Assembly: GCF_000949635.1 (NCBI RefSeq)
Contig: NZ_BAFN01000001.1
Location: 744,001 to 808,000, forward strand
Source: Candidatus Brocadia sinica JPN1
Lineage (GTDB): Bacteria > Planctomycetota > Brocadiia > Brocadiales > Brocadiaceae
DNA: 64,000 nt
Reading direction: 5' to 3'
The notes beneath the pieces were generated by a model that did not search any database, was not told the origin of the DNA, and saw nothing but the letters and a program-made list of their open reading frames with translations. Shown here in pieces: positions 29,662-39,786 of this stretch. The number at the start of each line of letters is the position of its first letter. The first letter of the stretch is position 1. A program made the position numbers and the translations under genes.

Positions 29662-29809
29662 AAAAAAAGCCCCTCGTTTCCGAGAGGCTTAATTAGGTGC
29701 CCCGACGGGTGCGGGGACATGGTTTTTTGCAGAGCCAGAAACCTGGATGCATATCCCGCAATACTTTATTATGGAAAAGCAGTGCAGGCATTTGTGTGGT
29801 ACACACTAT
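29662..29809 (-). ncRNA. tracrRNA of the Cas9 system
   Basis: On the minus strand, GTACCACACAAATGCCTGC (from 29802 to 29784) is perfectly complementary to 19 nt of the CRISPR repeat. After a bulge, CCATAAT (29774-29768) pairs, with two G-U pairs, with the repeat's GTTGTGG end. This upper and lower duplex with a bulge is the tracrRNA architecture. Two further hairpins follow (CCAG/CTGG and CCCCG/CGGGG), and an intrinsic terminator (stem 29669-29688, T-run 29668-29662) ends it. Length about 148 nt. It runs divergently from cas9, next to the cas9 start. Confidence 0.88.
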
Positions 29810-29815
29810 GGGAGT

Positions 29816-29845
29816 ATTATACCTATCCATTAGAATACATGTCAA
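29816..29845 (-). promoter_or_regulatory. Promoter of the tracrRNA
   Basis: On the minus strand, a perfect TTGACA (29845-29840) and a perfect TATAAT (29821-29816) are separated by 18 bp. Transcription would start near 29809, just before the anti-repeat. The -35 lies within 20 bp of the cas9 start codon, so cas9 and tracrRNA transcription may interfere. Confidence 0.8.
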
Positions 29846-29862
29846 TAAAAATGGAGGTGTTT

Positions 29863-32800
29863 GTGGAAAATTTCATTCTCGGTCTTGATCTGGGCACTAA
29901 CTCAATAGGCTGGGCGATAATCGGATGCGACGAAAATGCTAACCCTTCGCGTCTGATTGACGCAAACTCTCGCATCTTCCTCTCCATGATGGAGGCGGAC
30001 GGCAAAGCCCCGAAGAACAAACAGCGCCGTGACAAGCGACTCACACGCAGGCAAATCAGACGACATAAAGAACGTAGGGACAAACTACTTGAGATACTCG
30101 TTGACCAACACCTTCTCCCTGGAGAATTTCACCAGCCATCAGACTGGCCGTGTCTTCTCAACCAAAAGGGCAAACTTCCCAATGGCGAACTGAAAGACTT
30201 CCTTGCCAGCAACCCCTTTCTCCTTCGCTCAGAGGCGTTAGAACGCAACTTAACAAGACACGAGTTTGGACGCGTATTGATGCACCTTGCCAAACGGCGC
30301 GGATACAAAAGCAACCGGGGTATCAAATATCACGCACTGTTCCGCTATATTGAAGAAAACAAAATTGGCATCCGCTATGCCGTCCAAGGAGATGAAGAAC
30401 AGACAGAAACATCTGAATATGCCAATCAGCACGGCGACAAAAAAGAAGCCGAAGAAACCGGAAAGGTATGGGAAGGCATCCGTGTGCTTAAGAGGCAAAT
30501 GAGGTCAGATGAAACTATCGGACAGTTTGCCGTCAGGGTTGCACATAATGAAAAATGGAAAATTCCCCGCCGCTTGCACACCATAAGTATGGATGAAACC
30601 AAAATTCCCACAAAAGGCAAAAGTAAGGGACAGGGGAAAACTACCGCCTATCATTTGCACGCCACTCGTGAGTTATACGAGGATGAATTTTCGCGCATCT
30701 GGGATCGTCAGGCTGAAAACTTTTGCCACTTGCTGAGCCAAACACCGGCGCAAATTAAAACACTCAGAGAAAAAATCGAGCATGCCATTTTCCACCAGCG
30801 TCCACCACAACTGCAAAAGGGTAAGGTCGGCATGTGCACTATCAGACTCAAGAAAAAACGTGCGGCAACTGCCCTGCTTGAATCGCAGGAATATTTGTTG
30901 TTGCAAGATATTAATAATCTCAAATATGGCGAAGTTCGTGGCAGAGGCAAACGTATTCAGATGGATACCCACCAACCTTTGTCCGCCGGACAACGGCAGC
31001 AATTATTAAATGCATTATCCGACCACAAGCAAGTTAATGAGCAAAATACGCTAACATGGGATAGGGTTAGAGAAATACTTGAACTGGATGCATCAATCAA
31101 ATTCAACCTCGAAATCTCCAGCAATAAAGATAAAAGCGGTGAACAAATCAAGAGCGGTAAAAAGGGTATCACCGGTAACCGCACCGCTTTGGCGATTGCG
31201 CGTGTAATACCAGAAGAATGGAAAGTCTTTACCGCAGCGCAAAAGAAGTCGTTGGTAAATGACCTACTCAATATCCACGACAAAGTAGCTCTGTTTAACC
31301 GCTTGCGTAACCACTACCGGCTGCCACATCAACGCTGCCCCTGGCAATTCAGCGACCAACAGGCCTTCGAGTTAGCAACGCTGGAATTACCTGCCGGCTA
31401 TATGAAACATTGCTTTGAGGTTATTACTGAGTTGTTAAGGCATTTTAGACAAGGCATGATTTACAGCGAAGCTAAAAAAGAACTTGAAAAAGACCCTAAA
31501 TTCAAAAATCAATCAGAATCCGGTCAACCCAGGCACTTGGGGGAACCACCCGACATCGCCAACCCGATTGTACAAAAAGCATTGTATGAAATACGCCGTG
31601 TGGTAAACGCCATCATAGAGAAACAGGGATGCAAGCCCAAAATAATTCGTATTGAAATGGCGCGCGATATGAAGGCATCTAAGGTACACCGCGCAGAAAT
31701 GGAAAGCCGTAATATTGAAAACCGCAAGCTCAACGAAAAAGCTAAGGAAGCTATCCGCGACTGGAATCAGCACAACCCGCATCAAACCATGGGGCTAGAG
31801 CCAGCTAATATTGAGAAAATCAAATTATGGATCGAACAACGGGCAAAGCCGGATAAAGAAAGCACCACAAAAATCAAACTTTGGCAGGAGCAAAATCATA
31901 GATGCCTCTACAGCGGCAGATATATTTCTTTCCCACAGATTGCCGATGGAGAGGTGGATATAGACCACATCTATCCTCGCAGCCTTTCCGGCATGAATAA
32001 TTACCTGAACAAAGTGCTGGTGTTCAAGTCTGAAAATCTCGCCAAAGAACAAAAAACTCCCTGGCAAAAGTGGGGCAATAGCGAAAAATACAATCAAATT
32101 GTTAAACGCGCCCAGGAATGGTATGGTGGGAGTGACTCTCCTCTTAAAGCCAAACTATACAAAGTTAAAAACACATTAGACGAAACCTCATTCAAGGAAG
32201 AAATGCGTAAGTTCACCGAATCTCAGTTGAACGACACCCGCTACATTTGTGTTGCTGTTAAAAATTATTTGAAAACACTGGGCTACACCGACCAGGAAAT
32301 CCAGGTTTCACGTGGGCGTGCAACTGCTGATATACGCCGTTTGTGGGAACTGGGCAACATATTGCCCAGGGCGAAAAGAGATCAAGAAAGCAAAAATGAG
32401 GATAAAGAGACTGATGATAACGAGATTGATGAAGCCGAGGGCGATAAGACAAAGAAGGGGAAGAAAAAAGACCGTGGCGACCATCGCCACCATGCGATTG
32501 ACGCCATCATCACCGCCCTGACCGATAGAAGGACTTTTGCAGATTTACAGCGCCGTTATCGTTATTACGAACTCAACAGCAGTTGGCCTAATGCTCCACT
32601 TGAAAAACCAATGCGCGCAGACGGCAAACCTTGGGAGTCACTTCGTCATGATGTCGAGCAAATCGTGATGAACCGGGTAGTCAGCTTTAGCGCCACCCGC
32701 AAGGCAAGCGGCGGACTGCATGATGAGCAACCTTACGGGTTGGGTCACTATAAGGAAAAAATGCCAATCAAGAAACTGCTCAAGTCTCCGGACATTATCC

Positions 32801-33708
32801 GTACCTTGCCTGATAAAACACCTGGCAAGAAACTGGAGGATAGTAATACCTGGATTGCCGACGCCTTTTTCCGCCAAAAGCTCCTGGAATGGCTTGTCAA
32901 TTGGGAACGCGCAAAGTGTGTGAAAAATTTTCCTCCACCTCTCCTGCCTGACGGCAAACCTCTTGATACTGTTGCCGTGGCCCATCGTTGCTATGTCAAA
33001 CGCGCACCGGTTGTCGAAGCATTGAAACGGATTGAAAACAACCCCGGTAAGAAAACGTGGGTTGCCAATGACGAATTGCGAAATATTTTACGCAATTGGC
33101 TAAGGCAACCAGGCAATAGTGTTAAATCAGCCCAAGTTAATCCACCCACCATGCCTTCCAAAAACGGCAATGGCAACCCGATCCATACAGTTCGACTGGC
33201 ATCAGTCTCTACCGCTATGGTTCAATTCAAAGGCAAACCGCAGATTTTTGCAAAGGCCAGTAATCATCACGTCGCCATTTTCAAACGTATCGGTACGGTT
33301 GTCGAACGCAAAGGTATTTTTGTGGATATGTTGGAAGCAGCGAAACGCATCAGAAAACCGCCCGTCGTGCGAAAGTCGCCACAGGAATTGCTGGCGCTTG
33401 ATCCGGCTGTCAATCCAGCCGAATGGCAGTTTGAAATGTTCCTATGCAATAACGATATGGTATTGTGGGATGTTGATGATCCGGACTGGCAACAAAGAGA
33501 TAAAATATATTTGGATGAGAAGAATCACCATTTGCCAATTTACCGCTTGCAGAAAATGACGAAAGGAACACTTACTTTTCGTCATTTTTCGGTTACGTCC
33601 ACTGCTGATACGGACAATCGGGGAGTTCTTAGACGATCACCAACCAAGCTGCGCTGCAAGAAAATACGGATTAACGAATTAGGCAATTACAATATTTGCC
33701 ATGATTAA
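29863..33708 (+). CDS. cas9: CRISPR-associated endonuclease Cas9 (type II-C-like)
   Basis: An RNA-guided DNA nuclease of 1281 aa from GTG 29863, chosen because GGAGG lies 5 nt upstream; in-frame ATGs at 29839 and 29851 lack a ribosome site, and sequence further upstream is tracrRNA. RuvC-I has Asp9 in LGLDLGTNSIGWA. An Arg-rich bridge helix follows (KNKQRRDKRLTRRQIRRHK). RuvC-II has Glu598 in RIEMARD. HNH has His702 in DIDHIYPRSLSG with FKSENLAK. RuvC-III has His877 and Asp880 in HRHHAIDAI. All nuclease residues are intact. It overlaps cas1 by 8 bp. With no csn2 or cas4, the locus fits II-C, although the protein is longer than typical II-C Cas9s. The PAM is not visible. Confidence 0.96.
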   Translation: MENFILGLDLGTNSIGWAIIGCDENANPSRLIDANSRIFLSMMEADGKAPKNKQRRDKRLTRRQIRRHKERRDKLLEILVDQHLLPGEFHQPSDWPCLLNQKGKLPNGELKDFLASNPFLLRSEALERNLTRHEFGRVLMHLAKRRGYKSNRGIKYHALFRYIEENKIGIRYAVQGDEEQTETSEYANQHGDKKEAEETGKVWEGIRVLKRQMRSDETIGQFAVRVAHNEKWKIPRRLHTISMDETKIPTKGKSKGQGKTTAYHLHATRELYEDEFSRIWDRQAENFCHLLSQTPAQIKTLREKIEHAIFHQRPPQLQKGKVGMCTIRLKKKRAATALLESQEYLLLQDINNLKYGEVRGRGKRIQMDTHQPLSAGQRQQLLNALSDHKQVNEQNTLTWDRVREILELDASIKFNLEISSNKDKSGEQIKSGKKGITGNRTALAIARVIPEEWKVFTAAQKKSLVNDLLNIHDKVALFNRLRNHYRLPHQRCPWQFSDQQAFELATLELPAGYMKHCFEVITELLRHFRQGMIYSEAKKELEKDPKFKNQSESGQPRHLGEPPDIANPIVQKALYEIRRVVNAIIEKQGCKPKIIRIEMARDMKASKVHRAEMESRNIENRKLNEKAKEAIRDWNQHNPHQTMGLEPANIEKIKLWIEQRAKPDKESTTKIKLWQEQNHRCLYSGRYISFPQIADGEVDIDHIYPRSLSGMNNYLNKVLVFKSENLAKEQKTPWQKWGNSEKYNQIVKRAQEWYGGSDSPLKAKLYKVKNTLDETSFKEEMRKFTESQLNDTRYICVAVKNYLKTLGYTDQEIQVSRGRATADIRRLWELGNILPRAKRDQESKNEDKETDDNEIDEAEGDKTKKGKKKDRGDHRHHAIDAIITALTDRRTFADLQRRYRYYELNSSWPNAPLEKPMRADGKPWESLRHDVEQIVMNRVVSFSATRKASGGLHDEQPYGLGHYKEKMPIKKLLKSPDIIRTLPDKTPGKKLEDSNTWIADAFFRQKLLEWLVNWERAKCVKNFPPPLLPDGKPLDTVAVAHRCYVKRAPVVEALKRIENNPGKKTWVANDELRNILRNWLRQPGNSVKSAQVNPPTMPSKNGNGNPIHTVRLASVSTAMVQFKGKPQIFAKASNHHVAIFKRIGTVVERKGIFVDMLEAAKRIRKPPVVRKSPQELLALDPAVNPAEWQFEMFLCNNDMVLWDVDDPDWQQRDKIYLDEKNHHLPIYRLQKMTKGTLTFRHFSVTSTADTDNRGVLRRSPTKLRCKKIRINELGNYNICHD

Positions 33709-34585
33709 ACGAATTGTAGAAATCAGCAATCCTGCGCGGCTTTCCCTGAAAAACCAGCAAATGGTGGTTGACCGTGAAGGATTCGACTTAGCCGCAGTTC
33801 CTATAGAGGATATTGGCGTTCTTATTCTGGACCATCCTCAGATCACCCATACACAAGGGCTTCTTGCAGCTTGTTCTGAAAATAATGTCGCGTTGTTAGT
33901 CTGTAGTGAGAAACATTTGCCAAGCGCTATCCTCTTACCACTTGAAGGAAACAGCCTCCACAGCAAAATTATCGCGCAGCAGGCACAAGTTACCGAACCC
34001 ACTTGTAAGCGTTTGTGGCAGGCAATCGTTCGGGCAAAGATTCGTGAACAGGCAAAGGCGCTTCTCCTTTCCACCGGAGATGACAGTCCCCTTCCTGCTT
34101 ATGCTAAGAGGGTAAAAAGCGGCGATACAGAGAACATCGAGGGGCAGGCGGCTCGCATCTACTGGCAAAAACTCTTTGGACAAGACTTCCGCCGCGACCC
34201 CAATACCCCCGGTATTAACACCCTGCTTAATTACGGGTACGCCGTGATGCGCGCTGCAGTTGCCCGTGCAATCGTCAGCACGGGACTGCATCCCTCCCTG
34301 GGCCTGCACCACCATAACCAGTACAACAGCTTTTGCCTTGCCGATGACTTGGTTGAACCGCTCCGGCCTGTGGTAGACCTTAAGGTGTATGAACTTTGTA
34401 AAAAACTTCCGGAAGAACCGGCGCTGACAACCGAAAACAAACGGGTGTTATTGGAAACCTTGAGCGCAGATTGTGTCATGAATGGTCAACGGCTCCCTTT
34501 AATGACTTCGTTGCATCATTACGCCGCAAGTGTGCGAAAGGTAATCTGCGGCGAGCATAAGCGTATGGAGATCCCTGCATTATGA
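33701..34585 (+). CDS. cas1: CRISPR spacer-acquisition integrase Cas1
   Basis: A 294-aa Cas1 of the type II kind (MIKRIVEISNPARLSLKNQQ start). The metal-binding set is visible as Glu in NIEGQAARIYWQ, His in HPSLGLHHHNQYN and Asp in NSFCLADDLVEPLRP. With Cas2 it inserts prespacers at the leader-side repeat and duplicates that repeat. It overlaps cas9 by 8 bp and cas2 by 4 bp, forming one operon. It appears intact, which matters for the giant insert in the array. Confidence 0.96.
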   Translation: MIKRIVEISNPARLSLKNQQMVVDREGFDLAAVPIEDIGVLILDHPQITHTQGLLAACSENNVALLVCSEKHLPSAILLPLEGNSLHSKIIAQQAQVTEPTCKRLWQAIVRAKIREQAKALLLSTGDDSPLPAYAKRVKSGDTENIEGQAARIYWQKLFGQDFRRDPNTPGINTLLNYGYAVMRAAVARAIVSTGLHPSLGLHHHNQYNSFCLADDLVEPLRPVVDLKVYELCKKLPEEPALTTENKRVLLETLSADCVMNGQRLPLMTSLHHYAASVRKVICGEHKRMEIPAL

Positions 34586-34911
34586 GCTTTGGAGGCTACC
34601 GGAGCATGTGGATAATCGTCATGTTTGACCTGCCCACTGATACGAAGCATGCACGCAAGGCTTATCATGAATTTCGGGAGGAATTATTAAATGACGGTTT
34701 TACCATGTTGCAATTTTCCGTTTACGCACGCCACACACCAAGCGAGGAAAATGCCGTGGTTCACGAAAACCGGGTAAAAACGTTTCTACCGGAAGACGGA
34801 GAAGTGAGGCTGTTAAAAATCACAGACAAACAATTTGAACGTATGAAGATTTTCAATGGAAAAACGCGTAAGGAAACAGAAAAAGCGCCCAAACAACTCA
34901 GTTTTTTCTGA
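34582..34911 (+). CDS. cas2: CRISPR-associated protein Cas2
   Basis: A 109-aa ferredoxin-fold protein with the Cas2 start MWIIVMFDLPTDTKHARKAY (internal Met) and the later YARHTPSEENA and GEVRLLKITDKQFERM. It bridges two Cas1 dimers in the integrase. The frame begins at ATG 34582 within the cas1 stop overlap, and MSFGGYRS is a short N-terminal extension. The array starts 48 bp after its stop. Confidence 0.95.
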   Translation: MSFGGYRSMWIIVMFDLPTDTKHARKAYHEFREELLNDGFTMLQFSVYARHTPSEENAVVHENRVKTFLPEDGEVRLLKITDKQFERMKIFNGKTRKETEKAPKQLSFF

Positions 34912-34958
34912 ATTGTTCGGGCGCATCACGAAGAAATACAATAGGTTACAGAAAGTCT

Positions 34959-35985
34959 ATTGTACCACACAAATGCCTGCCCGCAAGCCACAACGGGTGA
35001 ATTGTCCATTGCTGTCAATTGCGCTATTGTACCACACAAATGCCTGCCCGCAAGCCACAACGTATGGGGGTGTGTTTATGATGTTCTTGATATTGTACCA
35101 CACAAATGCCTGCCCGCAAGCCACAACATACAACTCATTCTTGTTTGTCCTTGCCATATTGTACCACACAAATGCCTGCCCGCAAGCCACAACGGGTCGA
35201 TTGGGGGATTGTTTACACGTGGGATTGTACCACACAAATGCCTGCCCGCAAGCCACAACGAAATGGTTATCCAATTCAATCAGCAGTTCATTGTACCACA
35301 CAAATGCCTGCCCGCAAGCCACAACTTTTGGCCTTTGCTACGTATTATGCTATTGATTGTACCACACAAATGCCTGCCCGCAAGCCACAACGAAGGTAGT
35401 TAGAGGTGAGTTTGAGTCTGAATTGTACCACACAAATGCCTGCCCGCAAGCCACAACTCCTCCTCTTTGCGGGTAGTTTTTCTCTGCATTGTACCACACA
35501 AATGCCTGCCCGCAAGCCACAACATACAGAGGAAGAAGCCAAAAATGCGGCATATTGTACCACACAAATGCCTGCCCGCAAGCCACAACTCGATTTCTTC
35601 CCTAGTGTTTCTCCCTGTCATTGTACCACACAAATGCCTGCCCGCAAGCCACAACCTGACCAAGTAGGCAAATACATCGTTTTTGATTGTACCACACAAA
35701 TGCCTGCCCGCAAGCCACAACGATTCCTTAATGATCGAGTCTATTTCCTCTATTGTACCACACAAATGCCTGCCCGCAAGCCACAACAACCTCCAATAAG
35801 TTCCGTTCGTGATTGATATTGTACCACACAAATGCCTGCCCGCAAGCCACAACTTACCGGGTTGGAGATTGAGTTTCCCCAGCATTGTACCACACAAATG
35901 CCTGCCCGCAAGCCACAACCGGTCTTGATGTGATATACATTTGTCTTTGATTGTACCACACAAATGCCTGCCCGCAAGCCACAAC
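34959..35985 (-). CRISPR. CRISPR array, 16 perfect repeats and 15 ordinary spacers
   Basis: 36-nt repeats begin at 34959, 35026, 35092, 35158, 35224, 35290, 35356, 35422, 35488, 35554, 35620, 35686, 35752, 35818, 35884 and 35950. All look identical. Spacers are 30 nt (the first is 31). The tracrRNA orientation and the repeat end TGGTACAAT indicate transcription on the minus strand, towards cas2. That end is an extended -10 element, as in Neisseria and Campylobacter II-C arrays, so each repeat may start its own crRNA. A seventeenth perfect repeat lies at 39611 beyond a 3.6-kb insert. No spacer match to the insert was found by eye. Confidence 0.97.
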
Positions 35986-38900
35986 ACCTTCTGCGCATCT
36001 TTACCGAAACGCCCAATCTCTGTTGCCCAGACAAGCCTTGCTGCATTAACGGCATCCTTGAATCCCCTCTGCATGCCAAAGAGCATGGCCTTTGCCTCGC
36101 CATCTACTACGCCGGGAGTGTTGCCGTAGTGTGTCTTAGCTGCCAGGTACCGTTCCGGGATGCTGGCAAAGGCGGTGTAGAGGTTAGAAAGGAAGTTGGT
36201 GGTATGGGTTTGTGGGTTCGAGAGCAACCCGTTGATCCACGCCTCCAGGAAGATGTCCTGGAGGCGCCGGGTTACGGGCTTTGCCATTTCCCTGGTTGTC
36301 TCATCAATTTGCTCTTGTGACTGCAAAGAATCCTTTAATAATTTTAATTGCTCCGGTGATATCTCTCCACTTTTTAAGATTTCTAAAGCACGTAAAAATT
36401 CTTCCGTTGCAGGCGCCGCTCCGATTTGTATCTTCCCAGATTCAGTCATCCTCGCCGCTTCCGTACTTGACGCTCCCATCTTACTACCAAACATTGCGGC
36501 TCTTACCATTAGTATTGGCGCAATTTCTTTGAGGCTTTTGTTTTTGGGATTTAAAGCGCTAGCATCGATCACACTTGATGCTTCAAGAAATAATTGGTTT
36601 CGCATCATTCGTGCAGCTACTTGCTTAGCTGCGCTCGGCAGAATGGTTCCATGCTCCAACCCCATAACTTCATTATAGATTGTTCTTAATTCTTTAGATG
36701 CATCCTGGAGTAATTGTTCATGAGATACTTCTGTTTTTTCCGTGCCAGTTATCTCCCTTACGGCTTCTATCGCCGATACCATAAGCGTCTTCACGTCAAC
36801 ACCGGCATCTATTTTCACAAGATTCAACCCTTGCTCATCTAATGCTTTTTGTATTAACTCTTCTGGTTTTAACTCGCCATATTCCTTTAGTTTTTGCTTT
36901 ACAAGATTGTCGATGTCTTCTATTTTACTAGGTGCGCCGCCTTCGATCTTGAGATGCCTGGAGAGTCGTTCGATCTGTGCCTCTGTCTCGGCGATCTCCT
37001 GTTTGTACTTTTCTGCGTTTTGTTTATAGACGGCCTCTTTGATCTTGGCGGTGACAAGCATTTGTTCTATGGATGCCGTGTCTTTGTTCTGGATGCCTAG
37101 CTTTTCTACGGCGTTTTTGTAGAATTGCTTGACGGTATCCTCTGACCAATTATTTTGCGTTGCGATGTCGTTGATTTCTAAGGCGTCTGACAGTGAAAGC
37201 TTGTTGGTATCTGTGAGTGTCTTGAGGAATGGCGGTAGTTCTATGGCGGATTGTTGCAATTCACGCGCATACAGTTGTGCGTTCTTCCTCGCATCGTCAA
37301 CGCTTATGCCTTCTCCGGCCCTGAATTGTACCTTCTGTGCAAGCGAATGGTTGTAGAGTGCAGCTCCTTCGGGGGTTGTGACATATTTCCACCCGATAGG
37401 TTTTCTGTCAACGCCTCGTATATCAGGCGCATTTTTGGCGCTGATAAGTTCTGAATTAGAGGCGGTTTCTAGTTGTGGTTGCTGTGGTGTGGTTACTTCC
37501 TGGGAGATTCCTGTTTTTGTTGTTGTCGCTCTTTGATCCTCCGAAGCCCTTCCTTCACCCCCCTGAGCATTCCCTCCTCCTGATAATCGTAGGGATCGTC
37601 CGGCATCGGTGGATAATTCTCCTCCTTGTTCAATGAGGACTGGAGGCTGCCCTCTTTCGACGTCTGTTGAGTATTTTTCATAACTTGCCCATCCTTTCTC
37701 TTGTTTAAGGATATCATAATTTTTACCTGGCGTCAAGCCAAGATTTAATACATAATTTGGGTCAACAAATCTTCCTGTCTTCTGGAATCTCTCTACAGCC
37801 CTCTGGGCTGCCTTTCCAGGCGGTAAATCTATATAGTGCAGATTTACCTGATAACCATCACTAACAAGCCAATCCCTCCATCTTCTTACACGTTCAATGT
37901 TTTTCCCAACAATCGGAAGTACCATATTCATATTTTGTTTGATTGCCTCTGGCGTTACGATACTATCGACAATATCGCCAGATTCTTTATGTGTAGCCCC
38001 TGAATGTCGAATATCTCCAAGATATGGTTTTGCCTCATCGGCATCGATAACAAGGGATTTCTTTTCTTTCGATAAGGTATGGACAAAAGAAGATTTTCCG
38101 GAAGCAGGAAGTCCGATAACAATATCGGCTGTTTTGTTGTTTTCTACAGGCCCTCCAAAAACATCCTTTCCTTCCTGGTCTTTTTCAATAAATGACCCCC
38201 GGTTTAACAAGGTGTCGGCCACCTGTTTCCTTAATGTTTGTCTTTCCGGTGTATTAATTAAGTGTGTCTCCGGAATAGTCTTTTGTTCTTCTCGGGCCTT
38301 AATGATTTCAGGTGTATCGAATGACCCTGGCGGTGATATCTCTCCCTTCGGTTGCTCCTGGGCTTGTTGGGTTTGCTCACCCTTGGGTTGGTGGGCAGTG
38401 CCTACCCTACTTTGCTCTGACGTTTGTTGTGTTTCCTGCGTTACCCCCCTGGTAAAGGGATGAATGATGGCGCCGGTTGCAGGGCCTGCTATGGCCGTCT
38501 GGATGATGGTTCGTTTCCTGGATTGAGAAAGGTCGTTATAAAATTGTTTGAAGGTTTTTTGGGGATATTGCCGGGCATAGGTAATGGCGCTCTGGACGAT
38601 GGTGTTGATATCCTCACCAAATATGTCCTGGGCTGTGGATAGAAATATCCGCTTGGCGAAAGATATCCCTGGTTTTAACAGGGTGCTCATGGGCATGAGT
38701 TCGGTGCCTATTTCCGATATGGTATGCCCTGCTGCCGATAACCCCGCCTTTAGCGTTGATGCGCCTTCTGCTTTTGCCTCTCCGTATTCCTGACCACCCG
38801 ATAGAGCCCCCATGATGCCAAGCCCAACAAAGGGATTGCCCGTAGCAGCCGACAGGAAAACGGCAGGGATGTTTTGCCCTACCGATACTCCTGCCCCAAG

Positions 38901-39610
38901 CAGGTTTTCTTTGAATGAGCCAGGGGGAATTCCTTCGTAGATTCTGGCGAGTTCTATGTTTGACCCCTGGAAGACGTCCTGACCATATTGTTTTATTGAT
39001 TCCGATCCGGTGACGTCGCCAATGATCTGGGCGATACCACCTATTGAGCGCGTGGCAGCAAATGTGGTGGCTTCAGGGATTTTCTGAAAAACGGCAAAGA
39101 GGCTGTCGGTGGGATCGATTTCTGATTTTGGATTTTTTTCCCCTTGTTCCCCATCGCTGAGGGATTTCCTCCCCCCGCCCTCTCCAGAGGGGGACAAATC
39201 ACTGTCCCCCTCTGGAGGGGGTTGGGGGGAGGAGGTTTCTTCCTGCCCTGCCACCTGATAATCCTTCCTGATCTTCTCCACGGCATCCAGGGGTTCCATC
39301 TTCTTGTCGATGATGTAGGAATGGAATACCCTGAGCCATTTTGCCTTTTCTTCCTCTTCCAATATCCCGGCGAATTGCTGTTTGAAATCGAGGTCGAAGA
39401 GTTCACGGGCGGCCTTGTAGTTGGGGCGATTGGTGATCTCCTGGTTTCTTTGCAGTTCATCCATGGCCTTGTTTTTATCCGCAAGGGAGATGCCTTCTGC
39501 GGAGATGATGTCTTCTTGTTTTAAACTGTATGGGTCGGAGTTGATACGATACATGAGTTTGTTGTAAATATCCGGGTCGCTGATTTCTGGCTGGTTGCGT
39601 GCCCGGACGA
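35986..39610 (-). pseudogene. 3,625-bp insert between two CRISPR repeats: internal fragment of a large phage-type gene
   Basis: The minus strand is open across the entire insert (about 1208 codons) and enters and leaves through the flanking repeats with no start or stop of its own, so both gene ends are missing. The N-terminal part has an internal-virion-protein-like helical region with Gly/Ala-rich membrane-like segments (PAVFLSAATGNPFVGLGIMG). The middle has a zeta-toxin-like P-loop kinase domain (IVIGLPASGKSSF, LVIDADEAKPYLG). The C-terminal part has LLSNPQTHTTNFLSN and ASIPERYLAA, strings common in giant phage injection or polyvalent proteins. It also contains a MITE-like palindrome. It occupies a spacer position. 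Translation into the array would give a fusion, which I regard as artefactual. Confidence 0.8.
39165..39236. repeat. MITE/REP-like palindrome inside the insert
   Basis: Arms of about 28 bp (CCTCCCCCCGCCCTCTCCAG... and its near-complement) around a short centre; the sequence stays in frame with the surrounding phage-type reading frame. A related G/C-rich palindrome is at 57508-57580. Confidence 0.6.
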
Positions 39611-39646
39611 ATTGTACCACACAAATGCCTGCCCGCAAGCCACAAC
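39611..39646 (-). repeat. Isolated seventeenth CRISPR repeat
   Basis: A perfect 36-nt copy of the array repeat, 3,625 bp from the sixteenth. If the array is transcribed on the minus strand this is the first, leader-adjacent repeat. AT-rich leader-like DNA (39647-39720) lies next to it on the right. Confidence 0.95.
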
Positions 39647-39786
39647 GGAATGGGTAAACGAGAATTGTAAAAATTTAACAAAAAAACATCCATGAGTCAA
39701 CGAACAGAATTCATCATTAAAGCGCCGTCCACTCCTTGTGAATAATGATACGTGTGAAATGGAGAGAAGCCGTACAGGTAATTTGG

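Follow-up and report, generated by a model that had tools for sequence, protein, structure and literature searches.

A phage gene fragment of 3,625 bp lies between two perfect repeats of a type II-C CRISPR array in Candidatus Brocadia sinica

The length of spacers in CRISPR arrays is generally attributed to a ruler mechanism together with trimming. In Candidatus Brocadia sinica JPN1, one interval between two perfect repeats measures 3,625 bp where ~30 nt is expected, which raises the question of how such a unit, spacer-like but not an ordinary spacer, came to be there. The window (the whole stretch of 64,000 nucleotides that was analysed) belongs to a genome of 4.08 Mb in three contigs, and the locus is a type II-C CRISPR-Cas system: cas9, cas1 and cas2 abut or overlap in one operon, without csn2 or cas4, and the array comes after cas2. 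The 36-nt repeat, ATTGTACCACACAAATGCCTGCCCGCAAGCCACAAC, occurs 17 times in the genome, all copies being perfect and at this locus. Sixteen are regularly spaced at 34959–35985 and enclose 15 spacers (one of 31 nt and fourteen of 30 nt); the 17th lies beyond the long interval, at 39611–39646, so that the arrangement described in the initial annotation is borne out. We infer that the crRNA sense is the minus strand, on which the repeat reads GTTG...GTGTGGTACAAT. No Rfam match to a tracrRNA was obtained. The features are as follows.

29719–33708, plus strand: cas9 open reading frame, type II, with its true start probably further in (PADLOC Cas9 models, E 2e-85)
29784–29803, minus strand: candidate tracrRNA anti-repeat, a 20-nt exact match to the repeat, 5' of cas9
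33701–34585, plus strand: cas1, type II (PADLOC Cas1_II, E 2e-110)
34582–34911, plus strand: cas2, type II (PADLOC Cas2_II, E 1e-46)
34912–34958, no strand assigned: leader on the cas2 side, with conserved AAATACAAYARSTTA at 34934–34948 (62-nt flank comparison, six genomes)
34959–35985, minus strand: regularly spaced portion of the array, with 15 spacers between 16 repeats (from repeat and spacer positions)
35458–35487, minus strand: spacer 8, matching at 29/30 nt the insert's phage gene family in Brocadia G007, with protospacer 3' flank AGAAAATTGC
35986–39610, minus strand: giant insert, an internal piece of a podovirus internal virion protein gene, sense to the crRNA (1,207 open codons)
39611–39646, minus strand: terminal perfect repeat beyond the insert, ending in the extended −10-like TGGTACAAT
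39669–39720, plus strand: 52-bp segment past the terminal repeat that shares 88% identity with a 688-bp insert in Brocadia WS118, at the array-side end of that insert

The Cas9 of the window (29719–33708) is only about 30–40% identical to that of WS118 (L058 11887–14952). Since the two differ little in Cas1 (86% alike), Cas2 (95%) and the repeat, cas9 seems to have been exchanged beneath a conserved adaptation module.

The insert occurs once in the genome as a whole, and both its borders fall exactly at complete repeat ends. Its minus strand is open for 1,207 codons, as compared with a longest frame of 232 codons in 200 shuffles. Within this frame Pfam recognizes a Zeta_toxin domain (PF06414; 37740–38144, minus strand; E 2.4e-11, above the cut-off). 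The insert's own PHROG matches are to kinase-like parts, while the G007 homologue hits the PHROG ‘internal virion protein’ at 2e-28. Among phage records, the matching proteins are internal virion proteins from podoviruses of Pelagibacter, Roseobacter and cyanobacteria. In WS118, a longer copy of the gene comes after a second gene of this class (3e-29). Podovirus internal virion protein D (Pelagibacter phages, Syn5, P60) is homologous to the family in its C-terminal part, although the identity is only 27–35%. Homologues extend past the insert by ~310 aa on the N side (WS118) and by at least 130 aa on the C side (B. pituitae, G007); the insert is therefore an internal gene fragment, and phage-type DNA in one open frame with both gene ends missing, as had been proposed, is what the comparison reveals. 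By homology, the insert is assigned to a podovirus-type internal virion protein gene with a Zeta-toxin domain, and its phage origin is clear. Middle domains vary among copies of the gene; those of B. sinica and B. pituitae are different and toxin-like. The family is present in 5 of 62 genomes of the order, and in three of the five it is joined to the 36-nt repeat. The intact parent gene that the initial annotation hoped to find was not detected in the viral collections searched, either as part of a Brocadia phage or by queries with the insert and the alignment, nor was it present in the genome itself.

The ends of the insert have no direct repeat in common, in agreement with the earlier argument against a simple single crossover, and no terminal inverted repeat (9/40 positions). 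Insertion of a transposon or casposon was rejected, as terminal inverted repeats, transposase and casposase are all lacking; a prophage at an att site was likewise rejected, the insert being one truncated gene without an integrase or a complete gene set. Inside the insert, Rfam matches were below threshold and lay over a palindromic repeat. This repeat is dispersed across the Brocadia chromosome and is in frame within the insert (window 39139–39233); other copies of the gene carry different low-complexity inserts in the same linker.

The locus is flanked by a multihaem cytochrome gene on one side and a DinB-like gene on the other, and three sister genomes have both neighbours with no CRISPR between them. 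A repeat copy at the position equivalent to the terminal repeat was found in three genomes (G004, G008 and G006). In Ca. B. pituitae (complete genome AP021856), cas9 has been lost, but one repeat is kept here with two mismatches, followed by the homologous gene joined at the same point as in B. sinica. In Brocadia MAG_8, one perfect repeat is followed directly by a broken copy of the gene that starts much further inside it. The locus of Brocadia WS118 looks functional and carries a phage-like insert of 688 bp that separates the terminal repeat from its neighbour; parts of this insert recur by another virion-gene fragment on the same contig. The array state in relatives, suggested earlier as a check, includes a decayed locus in G005 that retains a single repeat and lacks an insert. 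A copy of the phage gene in G007 extends into the degenerate last repeat of another kind of array, GTTTCAATTCCTTATAGGTTCAATGAAAG (L056 1–477), which is separate and weaker evidence. In B. pituitae (L055 8770–12528), the 3' end of the gene stops beside a short dispersed inverted repeat, past which come a leader resembling a SAM riboswitch and a gene resembling threonine synthase; neither the array nor the cas genes persist there.

These comparisons bear on whether the interval is an artefact. The B. sinica assembly was built from 454 reads, 3-kb pairs and fosmids, with no long reads (PMC4400429), and a misassembly through a shared repeat or spacer had been raised. Against this, 454 reads far exceed the repeat in length, and the same repeat–gene junction is found in the separately assembled, complete genome of B. 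pituitae, making the artefact very improbable indeed. Long virus-derived pieces occur at this repeat in related species too, so the event is read as natural and recurrent.

The age of the unit within the array depends on polarity. The 62 nt of the array flank on the cas2 side are 69–84% alike in six genomes, above shuffled sequences, whereas similarity of the other flank in the same comparison did not exceed the shuffled level. Part of the cas2-side similarity is the end of cas2 and its terminator, and a motif closer to the repeat is conserved too. In WS118, the repeat past the insert has the ancestral G while the other repeats (8/8) share an A, a pattern that fits array growth at the cas2 side. 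Type II-C adaptation in Riemerella anatipestifer and Campylobacter jejuni, with the same cas9-cas1-cas2 order and 30-nt spacers, likewise proceeds on the cas2 side (PMC6008519). Given a conserved leader on that side, the insert probably occupies the oldest, leader-distal position, and not the newest, leader-proximal one that had been assumed. At the far end from the leader, a spacer acquired by the integrase fits only if it was among the first acquired.

Exact repeat borders, in several species and with different inserts, point to a process that respects repeat ends, either Cas1-Cas2 integration or spacer-seeded recombination; they would not arise through random insertion or transposition. Integration of an over-long fragment, one of the options listed initially, stays in play. 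We favour it, while putting it somewhat short of an even chance: Cas1-Cas2 would have captured an untrimmed phage fragment as a very long spacer-like unit. The integrase would have joined the untrimmed podovirus internal virion gene fragment, by both its ends, to the opposite ends of one repeat, leaving a copy of that repeat on either side, just as when a normal spacer is acquired. The oldest position of the unit would place the capture at a time when the array had one or very few repeats, and the repeat–gene junction kept in both species would place it before B. sinica and B. pituitae split. Normal 30-nt spacers would have been added afterwards on the cas2 side. The last 20–24 nt before the repeat at 35950–35985 could serve as one ordinary Cas9 guide, and the extended −10-like end of the terminal repeat could plausibly drive sense transcription into the insert.

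Several observations are consistent with capture: the same junction in B. pituitae, now without cas9, and phage-derived DNA that starts exactly at the same terminal repeat in MAG_8 and lies between two repeats in WS118. We know of no Cas1-Cas2 that integrates kilobases in vivo. Capture should also not favour the oldest position, unless the array had a single repeat or one ancestral event was later remodelled. In Streptococcus pyogenes type II-A, trimming sets spacer length, and Cas1-Cas2 without Cas9 trimming integrates unprocessed DNA (PMC8034620), but this was seen in vitro with substrates far below kilobases and in a type that has Csn2. In R. anatipestifer, reported new spacers are of 30–31 nt only, unlike the 3,625-bp insert (PMC6008519).

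Spacer-seeded recombination accounts for the exact borders equally well. Here, two ordinary spacers from the same gene would have been acquired and the repeat between them swapped for the intervening segment, through homologous recombination or break repair with an infecting phage. The match of spacer 8 means that the array samples the insert's gene family, and shows uptake from the insert's gene. The flanks can be compared with the motif at this protospacer, AGAAAATT. Past the crRNA-3' end of the insert, homologues read GGAGAATG or GGAAAACG, similar to AGAAAATT, a motif inferred from a single protospacer and for which 5/8 matches arise by chance in about 3%. If a second spacer had seeded the exchange, a like motif might stand 30 nt inside the terminal-repeat end; the window insert has GCGACCCG there and MAG_8 has GAAGCATT, both unlike AGAAAATT. 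In WS118, the 30 nt that open the 688-bp insert lead into GGGAAAAC, which resembles the flank of the spacer 8 protospacer. The motif would thus mildly favour a single capture in B. sinica, while WS118 leans the other way. Further, comparison of B. sinica with B. pituitae shows no higher conservation in the first 30 nt of the insert than in the next 34 nt, and an arm of 30 bp is near the lower limit for RecA recombination. We regard spacer-seeded recombination, which corresponds to the double crossover listed initially and is the chief rival to capture, as fairly unlikely. Searches for other protospacers (three spacers against IMG/VR, the array against phage records) gave nothing useful, and an order-wide search returned only spacer 8 and a weak partial match of spacer 9.

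One ancestral event could also underlie all cases, a large phage insertion at the terminal repeat, perhaps made by recombination with a repeat-carrying element, being trimmed or overwritten later, differently from species to species, through deletions and exchange with related phages. In its favour, the terminal repeat is the site in every case, one junction is found in both B. sinica and B. pituitae despite their different toxin-like middle domains, and the 52-bp segment is common to the flank in these two species and to the WS118 insert, where its orientation relative to the repeat is opposite. The inserts of MAG_8 and WS118, however, differ and yet start exactly at the repeat end, which would take repeated lucky deletions, and no copy of the 36-nt repeat was found in the viral contigs searched. 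A single ancestral insertion is accordingly placed slightly below spacer-seeded recombination, as unlikely.

The state of the reading frame bears on what followed. B. sinica and B. pituitae stand near synonymous saturation, yet the frame is still open; synonymous distance failed as a clock for this reason. A neutral ancient capture does not explain an open frame at near saturation, so later host selection or re-supply by phage is needed. The fragment could also have been retained as a domesticated gene, with expression driven by the terminal repeat's promoter-like end and a benefit to the host such as antiphage action by a protein with a kinase-toxin domain; this would be compatible with capture. 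The 1,207 open codons, a dN/dS of about 0.15 against B. pituitae in the 5' part, and the sense orientation in three repeat-joined homologues fit such a role. Against it, there is no convincing start codon with a ribosome site, the fragment lacks the two ends of the gene, the copy in MAG_8 is broken, and the constraint may stem from a phage phase; we consider domestication improbable.

A precedent exists in Sulfolobus solfataricus, where an 899-bp pNOB8-like plasmid fragment, foreign DNA likewise far above spacer length, lies between two repeats of CRISPR locus F (PMC4390879). That case is archaeal, 0.9 kb long and the only one reported, whereas the Brocadia case is type II-C, 3.6 kb and of phage gene origin, and is both common to and recurrent in several species; it is a recurrent bacterial variant, four times longer, of the known 899-bp case. 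A broader proposal is that type II-C adaptation repeatedly captures kilobase phage fragments as giant spacers in nature, perhaps at the single-repeat stage, and that such units last on the time scale of species and can give rise to new genes expressed from a promoter carried by the repeat. We offer this tentatively, as possible but well short of probable. If true, natural kilobase captures with exact repeat duplication would show adaptation failing without trimming, and phage genes would have a route into defence loci. A link would also be drawn from CRISPR integration to casposons, the presumed ancestors of Cas1, which integrate long cargo. Two distant Brocadiales genomes carry the exact 36-nt repeat in identical one-repeat arrays beside cas2 (L062 4439–4474; L063 2423–2458), possibly a naive state.

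A second copy of the gene in the B. sinica genome (L017 9491–13424) is broken and stands beside an insertion sequence and a C-terminal fragment of cas1, about 7 kb from a 136-repeat array of the type seen in G007; a dispersed motif beside this copy was followed and then dropped. A third fragment of the gene (L018 7926–8321) lies within an apparent restriction-type defence island.
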